This document shows positions 39,069 to 44,252 of a stretch of 64,000 nucleotides of DNA, one piece after another (position 1 is the stretch's first letter; every line of letters begins with the position of its first letter). Position numbers and translations under genes: made by a program. This stretch comes from Dictyoglomus sp. GTDB taxonomy: Bacteria; Dictyoglomota; Dictyoglomia; Dictyoglomales; Dictyoglomaceae. The stretch spans positions 69,908 through 133,907 of the forward strand of contig JANXBZ010000004.1 of NCBI GenBank assembly GCA_025060475.1, given 5' to 3'. Under the pieces are notes generated by a model. That model was given only the letters and a program-made list of their open reading frames with translations. It had not been told where the DNA came from and made no database searches.

Positions 39069-39090
39069 GGGGAGAGTAATTTTACTCCCC
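39069..39090 (-). terminator. Terminator overlapping aldo/keto reductase stop
   Basis: GGGG...AGTAA pairs with TTACT...CCCC with a two-base bulge and TT loop. The gene's TAA stop lies within the stem and T-rich sequence follows on the minus strand. Confidence 0.65.
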
Positions 39091-40104
39091 TAAATATTCT
39101 CTAACAAGCTTTACATTTTCTCTTATAAGATCGGGAATGGGAAGTTTATAGGGACATCTTGGAAGACAATTGCCACATCTTGTACAATTTTGAGCTTTGA
39201 GATAAGCATCATAGAACCATCCACTACTTATATTATCTTTTGATAATCTTTTTATAAAGGAATCTGCCCTAATAATTATTGAAATAGGTATTTCTTGGGG
39301 ACAAGGCTGACAATAATCACACCTTCTACAGAAGGTAGGCCCAAGTTCTGCTTTTGTTTTCTCAATCTCCTCCCATTCTTCAGGAGTCAATGGAGAAAGC
39401 TCTAAAGCAATTTTCACATTTTCTTCTACCTCTTCTATAGTTTCCATCCCTGGATCTGGAATTACAAATTCCTTCTGCAAAGCAAATTTTAAGGCAAGTC
39501 TTGGATTGGGAAAAACTCCTCCCCCCATAGGTTTCATAGCAATGATTCCTATATCTTTTTCAAGAGCCATGGGAAAAATTTTTTCTTCCACCTTTGTTTC
39601 TATAAAGTTATAACATAATTGAACTACATCGAATTTATCTGTCGCAATTAGTTCTTCCAAAAGATCGGTACTATGACTTGATACTGCAATAAAATCTATA
39701 AGTCCCTCTTCCTTTGCCCTTAAAAGTCCATAATAGGCACCATCAGGAGAGAAAACTTTATTAAAGCTTTCTTTATCATTTATTCCATGGAGATGATAAA
39801 TATCAATCTTTTCTACCCCTAAATTTTTTAAACTGATTTTTACATCTTCGTATATTCCATCCTTTGTTCTATTGGGAGATTTTGTAGAAATATATACTTT
39901 TTTATCAATCCCTTTTAATGCCTTTCCAATTTTAATTTCACTATCTCTATATCCCCTTGCAGTATCAATTAAATTGATCCCAAGCTCTATAGCTCTTCTT
40001 ACCACTTTTACTGCTTCCTCTTCTTCTATCCTTTGAATGGGTATTCCTCCAAAAGCTATAGGAAAAACTTCAATATTTGTTCTGCCAAGTCTTCTGTATT
40101 TCAT
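39082..40104 (-). CDS. Aldo/keto reductase with C-terminal iron-sulfur domain
   Basis: A 340-residue protein. Residues 1-260 are an aldo/keto reductase barrel with DTARGYRDSEIKIGKAL (catalytic Asp and Tyr), ISTKSPNRTK (Lys) and YHLHGIN (His). The last 80 residues carry iron-sulfur motifs CRRCDYCQPCP and CTRCGNCLPRCP. This fusion, common in anaerobes, is assumed to couple NAD(P)H or ferredoxin to carbonyl reduction; the substrate is unknown. GGAGG lies upstream of the ATG, and a terminator overlaps the stop. Confidence 0.9.
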   Translation of the reverse strand: MKYRRLGRTNIEVFPIAFGGIPIQRIEEEEAVKVVRRAIELGINLIDTARGYRDSEIKIGKALKGIDKKVYISTKSPNRTKDGIYEDVKISLKNLGVEKIDIYHLHGINDKESFNKVFSPDGAYYGLLRAKEEGLIDFIAVSSHSTDLLEELIATDKFDVVQLCYNFIETKVEEKIFPMALEKDIGIIAMKPMGGGVFPNPRLALKFALQKEFVIPDPGMETIEEVEENVKIALELSPLTPEEWEEIEKTKAELGPTFCRRCDYCQPCPQEIPISIIIRADSFIKRLSKDNISSGWFYDAYLKAQNCTRCGNCLPRCPYKLPIPDLIRENVKLVREYLGE

Positions 40105-40173: not shown

Positions 40174-40842
40174 TCATCTCTGAAGAAGAGAAAAAATAAA
40201 ACGTAAGCCCAAAAGAATAATAAGGAATCCACATGCCTTTCTAAACAATTCAAAGATTCTTGGATTTTTAAAAATAAAAGGAGGAAGAACACTTAATGCT
40301 GTCCCCAAGAGAAACAATGGTACCATAAAAGAGGATCCCAATCCGAAAAAGAAACCATAGAAAGCACCTTCCCAGGGGCTTTCTACATTAAAGGCTATAT
40401 AAGTTAGAATACTCAATAAAGGAGCACAGGGAAAGGCAATACCTAGGAAAAAACCTAATAAAGCAGGGGGAAGAATATTTCTTTTTATAATATGATTAAA
40501 AAGTATTTTATAAAGATTAAAAGAAGGCTCCTTTCTCCAAATCATAAAAATTCCTGTGATAATAGTAAAAATACCCATTCCCAGTATAAGTAAACTATGA
40601 AATATTTCCATCTGAAGGATATTGAGGATAAAAACTCCCATCAAGCCTGACAAAAATCCTAATAAAATATAGCTTAACAATCGAAAAAGGGAAAATATTA
40701 GGATAATTCTTAGCCCTTTCTTTAATCCCTTAACATTACCTGCTATATAAAAAAGTAAGGGAGGAGTACAAGATATGGAACAATAACTAAAACTTAAGCT
40801 TAAACCAGTAATAAATAATTCTAAAGGGATATTTTTCTCCAT
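40174..40842 (-). CDS. CcdA/TauE-UreH-like membrane protein
   Basis: A 222-residue protein with six predicted membrane helices. Two cysteine-proline motifs lie in matching places in each half, SISCTPPLLFY (near residue 23) and IAFPCAPLLSILTY (near 137). This internal repeat with paired membrane cysteines is the hallmark of the CcdA/DsbD and UreH/SafE-like families that pass electrons through thiols across the membrane. It overlaps the upstream spermidine-synthase-like gene by 22 bases and ends the radical SAM cluster. A role in thiol reduction outside the membrane is inference. Confidence 0.75.
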   Translation of the reverse strand: MEKNIPLELFITGLSLSFSYCSISCTPPLLFYIAGNVKGLKKGLRIILIFSLFRLLSYILLGFLSGLMGVFILNILQMEIFHSLLILGMGIFTIITGIFMIWRKEPSFNLYKILFNHIIKRNILPPALLGFFLGIAFPCAPLLSILTYIAFNVESPWEGAFYGFFFGLGSSFMVPLFLLGTALSVLPPFIFKNPRIFELFRKACGFLIILLGLRFIFSLLQR

Positions 40843-43049
40843 ATTTTTAGAAAACTAAGACTCATAATTTTAGCAAAAAGAATAAAAAAAACAGTGGTTA
40901 TAATCCCAAAAAGGGGAATAAAAAATGGAGCTATCAAAAGTGCTCCCAGGACTGCCCCTAAAAGATCCGATGCATATAGTATTCCAGCTAATTTTCCAAC
41001 CCTTTTTTCCTTTTCAAGATATATACTACTTGCAAGAGGAAATTGAAGTCCCACAAGAAATCCTATAGAAAGGTTCAGTATATATAATAAAGATTCAAGA
41101 ATAAAGGATAGCTTTAGAGTATAGGTAAAAAGAAGTAAAATAATAAAAAGAAGAATAAAAGAATAAGAAGTTATTAATATCTCTATTTTCATTAATGTAT
41201 CATATTTTCTTCTAATTTTCTCAATTTTAGAAGTCATGCAATATCCACCTAAAGCAAGCCCCAACATAAATGAAGAAACTAGAATACCTATTTTATGATA
41301 AAGGTATCCTAAAAGAATCTGAAAGGAAAAAATCAAAAGGATATTAAAGGTGAAACCAAAGAATCCTGTAGTTATTATAGTGAAGATAACAGGAGCAATG
41401 GTATGCCTTCTTAAAAATAAAAGGGGAAAAAGGAAAATAATAAGAAAATACCACCATGGTATTTTTTGTATCCTCTGAAAAAAGCTTCTGCTTTGGGGAT
41501 AGGAAATAATATTAAAAAGGGAAAGGCTATAAAAGGTTGCAATGGGACGGGTATCCTTATTTATTTTAACTTCTTCTTTTAATAAATTTTTTAAAAAGAT
41601 TAGAGATCTTTCTTTGGAAAATTTATAATAAATATAGGGCAAAGTTAGAAGATTTGTTTTTATATTTCTTCTATGAAAACGTTCTGAAATTTCTTCTAAG
41701 GAAGGAATATTTTCTTTTTTTAGAAAGGACACAAAGATACAAAAATCTCCAGGAATTACTAGAACCTCTGGAAATATTTCTTTTAAAGTTTCCCAAATAC
41801 ACCTATTAAGTTTTACTATCTCTTCATCCATGTAAGACTCTGAGGCAGGAAGTCCTAAAGAAAAAATTCCATAAGAAGTTAATTTTTTTGATATCTCTGT
41901 GAAAAACTCCTTAGTGTAAAATCTATTCAATTGAAGGGTAGAAGGTGGAGGAAAATTCAAAATTATTACATCGTATTTACTTTCTTTTGTTTTTACAAAG
42001 AATCTTGCATCGGTAATTTCAAAATTTATCTTTAAATCATATTTATAGGGTAGAAATTTAGAAGAAAGTTCAATAATCAAAGGATCTAACTCCACATAAT
42101 CTATCTCCACATTATGTTTAGAGATCTCTTTTAAAACTCCTCCCATCCCTCCTCCTAATAAAAGAACCCTTCTAGGGGAAGGATGAAGAAGAAGTGAAAG
42201 ATGAGCAAGCTCCTCATTAAAGGCTATATCGGGATAAGGAGAAGTAAAAAGAAGAAGCCCATTCTCATAAAAATTTAGCTGATCATTAATTTTAGTTATA
42301 CTAATATTTCCATATATGGAATCTTCCTCATAAATTAATTTTTGATTAATCCATTGCCATTCTCGAGAGTATTTATTTAATTGGATAATATATTGAGAGG
42401 GAAGAAGATATAAACTAAATCCCAGTAGAGATATGATAAAAAGAAAAGAAAAAGAGGGAATCTTAATAAGAAGTAAAGAAGAGAAAAGATTTATTATCCC
42501 AGCAATAATTGCTATCTGTAAGGGATTAAAATGGTAAACTAAAAAGAAGGTAAAAAGAAAACCTCCTAATACACATCCTATAGCCTCTGCAATATAAATC
42601 CTACCTATATTTATAGAAGAATTTCCATTAAGAGAAAGAAGTCTACACCCTAAAGAAAATTGAAATCCGTTAAGGATACAGGAAGGAGCAAGAACTAGAA
42701 AAGAAGAAAAAAATATAATAGGGAGGGATACCATTTCTATTCCTTCAATTCCCATAAGAGAATTTATTTTTCTTGCGAAAAGAATCTGAAGGGGAAGAAT
42801 CAAAAAGAAAAGAATCTGAGTAAGAGGAAAGAAAGAAAATTTTTTAGGTATTTTATCAGTGTATCTTCCTAATATTCCGCTTCCTATAGCAGTGAGGATT
42901 AGCCAGTTTGCAAAGATTACTCCCAAGGATAGCTCATTTCCCTGAAAATTTACGATAAGTTCTCGGGTCAATACTACCTGAGCTATAGTTTCTCCTATTC
43001 CTACTGCAAGGAAGGAGATTAGGAGAAGATTATTTTTATTCCCATACAC
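40821..43049 (-). CDS. Spermidine-synthase-like domain between two membrane blocks
   Basis: A 742-residue protein. Residues 1-220 hold about seven membrane helices, 240-500 a soluble aminopropyltransferase-type Rossmann domain, and 525-740 another seven or so helices. The soluble part has motif I VLLLGGGMGGVLKEI and VELDP and the late NRFYTKEFF segment of spermidine synthases. However, the catalytic D-x-x-DP stretch is replaced by LNFPPPSTLQ, so ordinary polyamine synthesis is doubtful. It starts with GTG in a 14-base overlap with the radical SAM gene. The membrane architecture suggests it modifies a lipid, exported peptide or cofactor. Confidence 0.8.
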   Translation of the reverse strand: MYGNKNNLLLISFLAVGIGETIAQVVLTRELIVNFQGNELSLGVIFANWLILTAIGSGILGRYTDKIPKKFSFFPLTQILFFLILPLQILFARKINSLMGIEGIEMVSLPIIFFSSFLVLAPSCILNGFQFSLGCRLLSLNGNSSINIGRIYIAEAIGCVLGGFLFTFFLVYHFNPLQIAIIAGIINLFSSLLLIKIPSFSFLFIISLLGFSLYLLPSQYIIQLNKYSREWQWINQKLIYEEDSIYGNISITKINDQLNFYENGLLLFTSPYPDIAFNEELAHLSLLLHPSPRRVLLLGGGMGGVLKEISKHNVEIDYVELDPLIIELSSKFLPYKYDLKINFEITDARFFVKTKESKYDVIILNFPPPSTLQLNRFYTKEFFTEISKKLTSYGIFSLGLPASESYMDEEIVKLNRCIWETLKEIFPEVLVIPGDFCIFVSFLKKENIPSLEEISERFHRRNIKTNLLTLPYIYYKFSKERSLIFLKNLLKEEVKINKDTRPIATFYSLSLFNIISYPQSRSFFQRIQKIPWWYFLIIFLFPLLFLRRHTIAPVIFTIITTGFFGFTFNILLIFSFQILLGYLYHKIGILVSSFMLGLALGGYCMTSKIEKIRRKYDTLMKIEILITSYSFILLFIILLLFTYTLKLSFILESLLYILNLSIGFLVGLQFPLASSIYLEKEKRVGKLAGILYASDLLGAVLGALLIAPFFIPLFGIITTVFFILFAKIMSLSFLKIWRKISL

Positions 43050-44202
43050 CAGGGATCCTATGATTGCAGAACTTACATTTTCCTCCCTTAATATTATTCT
43101 CTAAGACTTGAAAATGGATCCTCTTAATTACTACCTTTTTACATTTGGGGCAAAAGGTACTGTTTGCTACATGTCCAGGAACATTACCGATGGTTACATA
43201 TTCCAATCCTACTTCCATGGCAATATTTCTTGCCTTCTCTAAGGTTTCAATAGGAGTTGGAGGAAGACGGTTCAATTTATAGGCAGGGAAAAATCTTGTA
43301 AAATGTACTGGGACTTCTTTCCCTAAATTATCTCTTATCCAGATACACATTTCCCTTATCTTATCTAAATTATCGTTTAAAGTGGGAATTATAAGGCAGG
43401 TAATTTCAAACCATACTCCTGATTTTTTAATGGTTTTTAAGGTAGAGAGAACAGGTTCCAAATCTGAAAAAGATGTTTCTCTATAAAACTCAGAAGTAAA
43501 TCCCTTTAAATCCACACAAACTGCATCAAGATATTTGAGAATTTCCTTTAAGGGCTCCTGATTTATAGCCCCATTAGTATGAAGATATACTCTTAATCCA
43601 TGTTTTTTAGCAAGTCTTGATACATCATATACCCATTCATAAAAGGTTGTGGGCTCGTTATAGGTAAAAGATATGGAAGAACAGCCATATCCTCGAGCTT
43701 TAGAAACTGCTTCTTCGGGAGAAAGATAGGGAAGTTTAAGCTCATCTTGAGTGCGTGTGGAAAGATGCCAGTTATGGCAAAAACTGCATTTGAAATTACA
43801 GCCTGCAGTACCAAAGCATAGGGTAAAGGTTCCTGGAAGAAAATGAAGAAGGGGCTCTTTTTCTACGGGATCAATCTGGGCAGTTACTCTCCCATAAACT
43901 AAAGTATAAAGGGTTCCCTTTTTATTTATTCTATTGGTACAATAACCTCTTCCTCCATCGGGTATGGTACAACGTCTAAAACAAAGTTGACATTGGACCA
44001 TATTATTGGGAAGCTTAATGTAATACTTGGCTTCTACATCTCTTTCTTTAGAAGATAGGGATTTTTTTAGTAGCTCTAATTCTAAAGAGGGAATAGGTGT
44101 ATCTCCTTTAAAAATCATGGCTCCTCCTGCTATCAAAAAGGAAAGAAGAAATATAATCTGAAGGAAAACGTAAAAATTATCTTTTAATTTTTTGAATTTC
44201 AA
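43036..44202 (-). CDS. AmrS-type radical SAM protein with N-terminal membrane anchor
   Basis: A 388-residue enzyme. A hydrophobic helix (residues 11-30) probably anchors it. The body matches the radical SAM component of the AmmeMemoRadiSam system: CQLCFRRCTIPDGGRGYC (near 70), HFLPGTFTLCFGTAGC, the CxxxCxxC cluster motif CNFKCSFCHNW (near 135), then SFTYNEPTTFYEW. A C-terminal zinc-ribbon-like part CPKCKKVV...CKFCNHRIPG follows. The usual partners Memo and AMMECR1 are not adjacent. It starts with TTG after AAGGAGGG and is followed by the spermidine-synthase-like and CcdA-like membrane genes in overlap. The reaction is unknown. Confidence 0.87.
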   Translation of the reverse strand: MKFKKLKDNFYVFLQIIFLLSFLIAGGAMIFKGDTPIPSLELELLKKSLSSKERDVEAKYYIKLPNNMVQCQLCFRRCTIPDGGRGYCTNRINKKGTLYTLVYGRVTAQIDPVEKEPLLHFLPGTFTLCFGTAGCNFKCSFCHNWHLSTRTQDELKLPYLSPEEAVSKARGYGCSSISFTYNEPTTFYEWVYDVSRLAKKHGLRVYLHTNGAINQEPLKEILKYLDAVCVDLKGFTSEFYRETSFSDLEPVLSTLKTIKKSGVWFEITCLIIPTLNDNLDKIREMCIWIRDNLGKEVPVHFTRFFPAYKLNRLPPTPIETLEKARNIAMEVGLEYVTIGNVPGHVANSTFCPKCKKVVIKRIHFQVLENNIKGGKCKFCNHRIPGVWE

Positions 44203-44223: not shown

Positions 44224-44252
44224 ATTATACCCTCTATAATCTGTGTTTTCAA
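44224..44252 (-). promoter_or_regulatory. Promoter of radical SAM membrane cluster
   Basis: TTGAAA (44252-44247), 17 bases, TATAAT (44229-44224) on the minus strand, with predicted start about 15 bases before the TTG start codon at 44202 and an AAGGAGGG site between. Confidence 0.75.

Follow-up and report, generated by a model that had tools for sequence, protein, structure and literature searches.

The AmmeMemoRadiSam system comprises the radical SAM enzyme AmrS (TIGR04337), Memo (PF01875), and AMMECR1 (PF01871). Radical SAM enzymes are regarded as intracellular, since the cell interior is where S-adenosylmethionine (SAM) and low-potential reductants are produced, and SAM chemistry outside a bacterial membrane would be unusual. 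Here we analyze a cluster of three genes within a 64,000-nucleotide stretch of a Dictyoglomus sp. genome (GenBank assembly GCA_025060475.1, contig JANXBZ010000004.1, positions 69,908 to 133,907), referred to below as the window. The cluster encodes an AmrS with an N-terminal membrane anchor, an MFS-type membrane protein with an inserted spermidine synthase (SpdSyn)-like domain (SpdMFS), and a CcdA-like transmembrane thiol-disulfide carrier. On balance, we lean towards the view that these proteins form one membrane module whose radical SAM chemistry takes place on the outer face of the cytoplasmic membrane, and the system is best read as an extracytoplasmic variant of AmmeMemoRadiSam in which AmrS is an exported variant of the known family.

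Several described systems resemble parts of this locus. AmmeMemoRadiSam shares the AmrS family with it, and Memo-AMMECR1 fusions occur in related modules, but here AmrS belongs to an exported, membrane-linked clade that is accompanied by SpdMFS and by CcdA or other electron carriers. The window SpdMFS (P0002) scores above the cut-off of NF037959, the model of fused MFS/spermidine synthase proteins; that model names no function or location, whereas the subgroup studied here is tied to exported AmrS. The closest characterized parallel to SpdMFS is the fungal protein NHMT (AN4663), in which a block of seven transmembrane (TM) helices precedes a SpdSyn-like SAM domain that has lost the Asp of GxG(D/E)G, retains the SAM-site Glu, and acts on secreted proteins in the endoplasmic reticulum (ER), hence on the extracytoplasmic side (PMC10349129). 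This likeness is one of architecture, drawn from the published description, and NHMT differs in having neither a second membrane block nor a radical SAM partner. The third protein shares its family score and paired membrane cysteines with CcdA/DsbD carriers (PF13386, PF02683), although here it apparently serves a radical SAM enzyme instead of cytochrome c or disulfide isomerase partners. Finally, flavinylated FMN_bind and NapH-like proteins are extracytosolic electron carriers (PMC8238504), and FMN_bind and NapH-like Fer4_5 proteins adjoin AmrS in four loci (L057, L070, L084, and L118), whereas the terms “Radical SAM”, “AMMECR”, and “spermidine” are absent from the main text of that study. A search of the openly accessible literature found no exported radical SAM system or bacterial SAM exporter of this kind.

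A conserved membrane module

A scan of GTDB contigs with the pattern DYVELDP yielded 80 full-length SpdMFS loci from many phyla. AmrS lies within the locus in 47 of these and no more than 300 bp away in 24, and many of the loci without AmrS are short contigs. Exactly these three genes, in unchanged order, are found in an unrelated genome (G066, locus L272), while one gene is inserted at L036 in G024 (AmrS-SpdMFS-x-CcdA) and four Omnitrophota loci (L086, L093, L126, and L130) have the permuted order AmrS-CcdA-SpdMFS. An earlier note, made from the sequence of the window alone, had named a lack of co-occurrence elsewhere as one outcome that would refute its proposal of a membrane-associated, SAM-dependent module; this test was run, the trio recurs, and the conserved linkage upholds the module. 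That AmrS, SpdMFS, and CcdA form a conserved module is in our view close to certain.

Memo and AMMECR1 partners are absent at the window cluster itself. The statement of the earlier note that the cluster lacks them is thus right for this locus but does not extend to the genome, which encodes a Memo (G000:C1) and a separate cytosolic AmrS (G000:C3) away from the trio, or to related loci, where the cluster also includes Memo-AMMECR1 fusions that have signal peptides (L040 in G018, L263 in G060, and several Omnitrophota).

Other variation was seen around SpdMFS and AmrS. In L090, L129, and L133, a different radical SAM family (~23% identity to AmrS) adjoins SpdMFS, with a Tat-like N-terminus in L129. 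Pairs of SIMPL (DUF541) proteins with signal peptides directly adjoin exported AmrS at L060:13366-14920 and L066:9560-11115. Five clusters (L056, L074, L078, L113, and L127) hold two Tat-type AmrS copies, in several cases one from each of two subclades.

Predicted export of AmrS

The window AmrS scores 352.9 bits against TIGR04337, for which the curated cut-off is 220, confirming the earlier assignment to the AmmeMemoRadiSam type. In a comparison of the conserved core, exported AmrS proteins keep 38 of the 51 positions conserved in cytosolic AmrS at ≥90%. The AmrS proteins linked to SpdMFS begin with a twin-arginine (Tat) motif and a moderately hydrophobic stretch, with a Sec-type signal peptide, or with a TM anchor, and their catalytic core is therefore predicted to lie outside; these classes were set by simple rules (RR motif and hydropathy), not by SignalP. 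Of the AmrS copies no farther than 300 bp from SpdMFS, 19 belong to the Tat type and 5 to the Sec/TM type, and the other two are cut by contig ends, so that all classifiable copies carry an export signal.

Presence of SpdMFS and export of AmrS also coincide across genomes. Among the 41 genomes sampled first, all nine that encode SpdMFS have an AmrS that is exported or anchored (in G020 as a split gene), and none of the 20 genomes with AmrS but no SpdMFS does. For a second set of 26 genomes, the figures were 9 of 11 with SpdMFS (two with partial SpdMFS matches only) against 1 of 12 without. The combined counts are 18/20 and 1/32 (Fisher p ~8e-11, uncorrected for kinship). The phylum of G024, tried as a sampling frame, contains only two genomes. 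In a tree of the catalytic core only, exported and split AmrS form one clade (SH-aLRT 99) that includes the window AmrS and excludes the cytosolic paralog of the same genome. Three rows labelled cytosolic fall within this clade, of which L123 is cut by the contig, L084 has a disrupted upstream region, and L094 has no visible upstream signal.

If the export signals were anchors only, AmrS could instead act on the cytoplasmic face, with CcdA and SpdMFS as its partners there. Both SAM and reductants of the ferredoxin type are indeed cytoplasmic, and one AmrS group is split and has a signal-less core of 324 aa. However, Tat motifs, lipobox-like and cleavable-looking Sec signals, and N-in TM segments would all put the core outside, exported Memo-AMMECR1 partners bear signal peptides, and the SpdSyn-like domain is predicted outside as well. 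TatC also speaks against the inner face, being present in all 13 genomes with Tat-type AmrS, compared with none of the four with only the plain Sec/TM type (G000, G009, G024, and G066; p 4e-4). We consider an inner-face enzyme improbable and an AmrS core outside the cytoplasmic membrane very probable. The earlier note was correct that AmrS is membrane-anchored, but it overlooked the predicted outside placement of AmrS and of the SpdSyn-like domain, the exported clade, and the restriction of CcdA to the Sec/TM type.

Split AmrS genes occur in L070, L099, L107, L112, L118, and L124 (Omnitrophota) and in L175 (G020). Each encodes a core of 324-328 aa whose ATG overlaps the stop codon of the preceding open reading frame (ORF), which is a TM or FMN_bind ORF, and the C-terminus of that ORF (e.g., REAKYYRVIEE*) corresponds to the missing AmrS N-terminus. 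The arrangement may represent a frameshift, a coupled split gene, or a docking peptide; selenocysteine or other recoding at the junction was ruled out, as the stops are a mixture of TAA and TGA. In L070, L084, L099, L107, L112, L118, and L124, a small ORF (~60-80 aa) with a Tat signal lies 3' of AmrS and ends in a conserved EA(R/K)YYK(N/K/T)LAG. It resembles the AmrS N-terminus without the enzyme and may serve the split AmrS core as a Tat hitch-hiker anchor.

SpdMFS carries a domain that has lost its catalytic residues

SpdMFS matches PF01564 (88 bits) and NF037959 (74 bits against a cut-off of 40), and the profile search gave no Pfam MFS match. The AlphaFold2 (AF2) model, based on 72 homologs (pLDDT 92.7, pTM 0.91), consists of seven TM helices, a soluble domain, and seven further TM helices, which agrees with the aminopropyltransferase-like domain between two membrane blocks described in the earlier note. 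As the C-terminal block matches MFS halves, SpdMFS can be viewed as an MFS protein with two additional helices at its center (TM7 and TM8), which bear the inserted domain on the outside. Lys and Arg residues number 21.7 in inner loops and 7.2 in outer ones, and the positive-inside rule favors an N-in protein in 81/81 homologs, so that the domain is predicted to lie on the outer face.

Both catalytic motifs of spermidine synthase are lost across these 81 homologs: position 302 is A/V/I/M, position 365 is G/N/H/S, and position 368 is Asp in only 31. The absence of the catalytic D-x-x-DP, as the earlier note had it, is thus borne out, and the Asp of the glycine-rich motif is missing too. E320 is retained in the window protein, and N375, R376, P433-G434, and N497-x-D499 are conserved in the family. 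DYVELDP is also conserved but was not used as evidence, since the scan pattern selected for it. From these sequence features we conclude that SpdMFS is not a spermidine synthase; the nucleoside-binding fold is still present in the modelled domain, whose most likely ligand is SAM or a SAM product.

Could SpdMFS nevertheless be an ordinary membrane-bound aminopropyltransferase for polyamines, linked to AmrS by chance? Its PF01564 match and weak matches to polyamine aminopropyltransferase models would fit, but both motifs are gone, two stand-alone spermidine synthases are encoded elsewhere in the genome of the window, and the linkage to AmrS is far above chance. Polyamine synthesis was ruled out on the lost residues and the separate genes, as the earlier note had anticipated, and we give this explanation almost no weight.

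A more serious competitor is that SpdMFS, rather than exporting SAM, is an extracytoplasmic membrane methyltransferase like NHMT, with an exported protein or lipid as its target; SpdMFS would then act in sequence with AmrS on the same exported substrate, and SAM would arrive by another route. NHMT has the same layout, seven TM helices in residues 1-215 followed by a SpdSyn-like methyltransferase, with the acid of GxG(D/E)G changed to Ile; it is ER-resident, acts on secreted LPMOs, and its SAM-site residue E340 was probed by mutation (PMC10349129). P0002 likewise has seven TM helices in residues 1-215, M302 in place of Asp, and E320 kept. On the other hand, its second seven-TM block has an MFS-half fold with no counterpart in NHMT, the proposal names no substrate, and the likeness is one of architecture and residues. 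We judge this explanation unlikely, though well ahead of the other two. SAM export by the MFS part is itself a tentative suggestion.

Proposed electron supply and the absence of Tat

The CcdA-like protein matches PF13386 (DsbD_2; 70 bits, 4e-19) and has no PDB relative by sequence. C21, C25-x-P, and P-C139-A-P are invariant across seven homologs, which substantiates the paired membrane Cys-Pro motifs noted previously, and the thiol or electron link proposed in the earlier note is upheld. CcdA is encoded in 7 of 14 loci with Sec/TM-type AmrS and in 0 of 23 with the Tat type (p 3e-4), with five label changes on the AmrS tree, and L272, found later, conforms to this pattern. TatC was not found in the genome of the window or in four relatives of the same genus and family (G000-G004). 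We find it somewhat easier to accept than to doubt that CcdA keeps the cysteines of Sec-exported AmrS reduced outside.

Organization of the locus and its genome

The three genes lie head to tail on the minus strand with overlaps of 14 and 22 bp, as the earlier note had described (Table 1). Its “one promoter” fared less well: a promoter-like site does stand 5' of AmrS, but 32 such sites were counted here against 25.7 ± 5.5 in shuffled sequences, and because they are no commoner than in shuffles, a single promoter for the trio is not shown. A downstream aldo-keto reductase gene (39082-40104) was rejected as a fourth member, its orthologs in G001, G002, and G004 standing in unrelated contexts and none being seen in other clusters. 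The genome (G000; 1.72 Mb, 99.6% complete) carries the trio, whereas none of its six closest relatives within the genus and family yielded a full-length SpdMFS; the trio was therefore probably acquired or differentially lost.

Table 1. Genes, domains, and motifs of the AmrS-SpdMFS-CcdA locus, with positions in the window
Feature	Position	Strand	Details
AmrS gene, exported/anchored radical SAM enzyme	43036..44202	-	388 aa, TTG start
SpdMFS gene, MFS-type membrane protein with inserted SpdSyn-like domain	40821..43049	-	742 aa, GTG start
CcdA/DsbD-type transmembrane thiol-disulfide carrier gene	40174..40842	-	222 aa
Promoter-like TTGAAA-17-TATAAT 5' of AmrS	44224..44252	-	11/12 sigma-70-like consensus; weak evidence
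AmrS N-terminal TM anchor, ~residues 10-30	44113..44175	-	N-flank net +3, C-flank -1; N-in/C-out; core IIFLLSFLIAGGAMIF
AmrS radical SAM CxxxCxxC (C135, C139, C142)	43777..43800	-	Invariant in alignment; PF04055 80 bits
SpdMFS N-terminal membrane block, 7 TM, ~residues 1-215	42405..43049	-	AF2 helices, positive-inside count
SpdMFS SpdSyn-like domain, predicted extracytoplasmic, ~residues 216-530	41460..42404	-	Foldseek 1uir E 1.6e-12, TM-score up to 0.75 by target; positive-inside topology
SpdMFS GGGMGG, Asp of spermidine synthase GGG(D/E)GG replaced	42138..42155	-	A/V/I/M across family (position 302)
SpdMFS NFPPP in place of spermidine synthase catalytic DSTDP	41943..41957	-	Alignment
SpdMFS C-terminal membrane block, 7 TM, MFS-half fold	40824..41459	-	AF2 model; Foldseek top matches nearly all MFS transporters, TMq up to 0.67, E 0.009-0.1
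CcdA-like C25 (SCTPP), first membrane Cys	40768..40770	-	Invariant
CcdA-like P138-C139-A-P, second membrane Cys	40420..40431	-	Invariant

Proposed mechanism and implications

In the mechanism that we propose, AmrS would be held by its N-in/C-out anchor with the Fe-S/SAM domain outside, and TM7 and TM8 of SpdMFS would carry the SpdSyn-like domain to the same side. This domain would bind SAM or a SAM product and either hand it over to AmrS or use it in a coupled transfer, and the MFS part would be the prime candidate for SAM efflux. CcdA would pass electrons outward from cytosolic thioredoxin, so that the many cysteines of AmrS stay reduced and its clusters can be built or reduced once Sec has exported the enzyme. 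CcdA may be needed here because the lineage lacks Tat to export the folded enzyme. The target would likely be an exported protein or envelope component.

Another SAM-dependent enzyme was also seen with predicted export signals. Protein isoaspartate methyltransferase (PCMT) has a lipoprotein signal at L066:15133-15840 and L104:6979-7683, the PCMT of the window's own genome has a signal peptide (L186/L222, L222:3990-4685, G000:C9), and PCMT with a signal peptide or lipobox is present in G007, G024, G030, G035, and G040. This would lend indirect support to an outside SAM pool, though not to SpdMFS as its only source.

A number of points weigh against the proposed mechanism. We know of no established SAM pool outside bacterial membranes. 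Exported PCMT is also encoded without SpdMFS in G001, G012, and G033, which led us to reject the idea that it occurs only with SpdMFS; SpdMFS is therefore not the sole route if SAM is outside. Half of the Sec/TM-type AmrS loci (7/14) have no nearby CcdA, and Fe-S assembly after Sec export is not explained. G049 and G065 carry SpdMFS with no exported AmrS found, while G046 shows the reverse, and the charge asymmetry of the AmrS anchor is clear in 13 of 17 cases. In addition, the counts of AmrS, SpdMFS, TatC, and CcdA are not corrected for phylogeny.

A broader version of the proposal is that radical SAM chemistry takes place outside the cytoplasmic membrane in many bacteria, which would use the exported AmrS clade, SAM exported and presented on the outer face by the MFS/SpdSyn fusion, and CcdA, FMN_bind, or NapH-like carriers as sources of reductant; we put this forward as a speculative possibility, somewhat short of an even chance. 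If true, an exported radical SAM clade across many phyla would change the intracellular view of these enzymes and imply an unrecognized route of SAM export. The pattern of TatC and CcdA would provide a testable rule for the export of Fe-S enzymes without Tat. The AmmeMemoRadiSam family, as yet without a known function, would gain informative partners in SAM handling and in thiol or flavin electron supply as well as a location in the envelope, through which its substrate could be traced.

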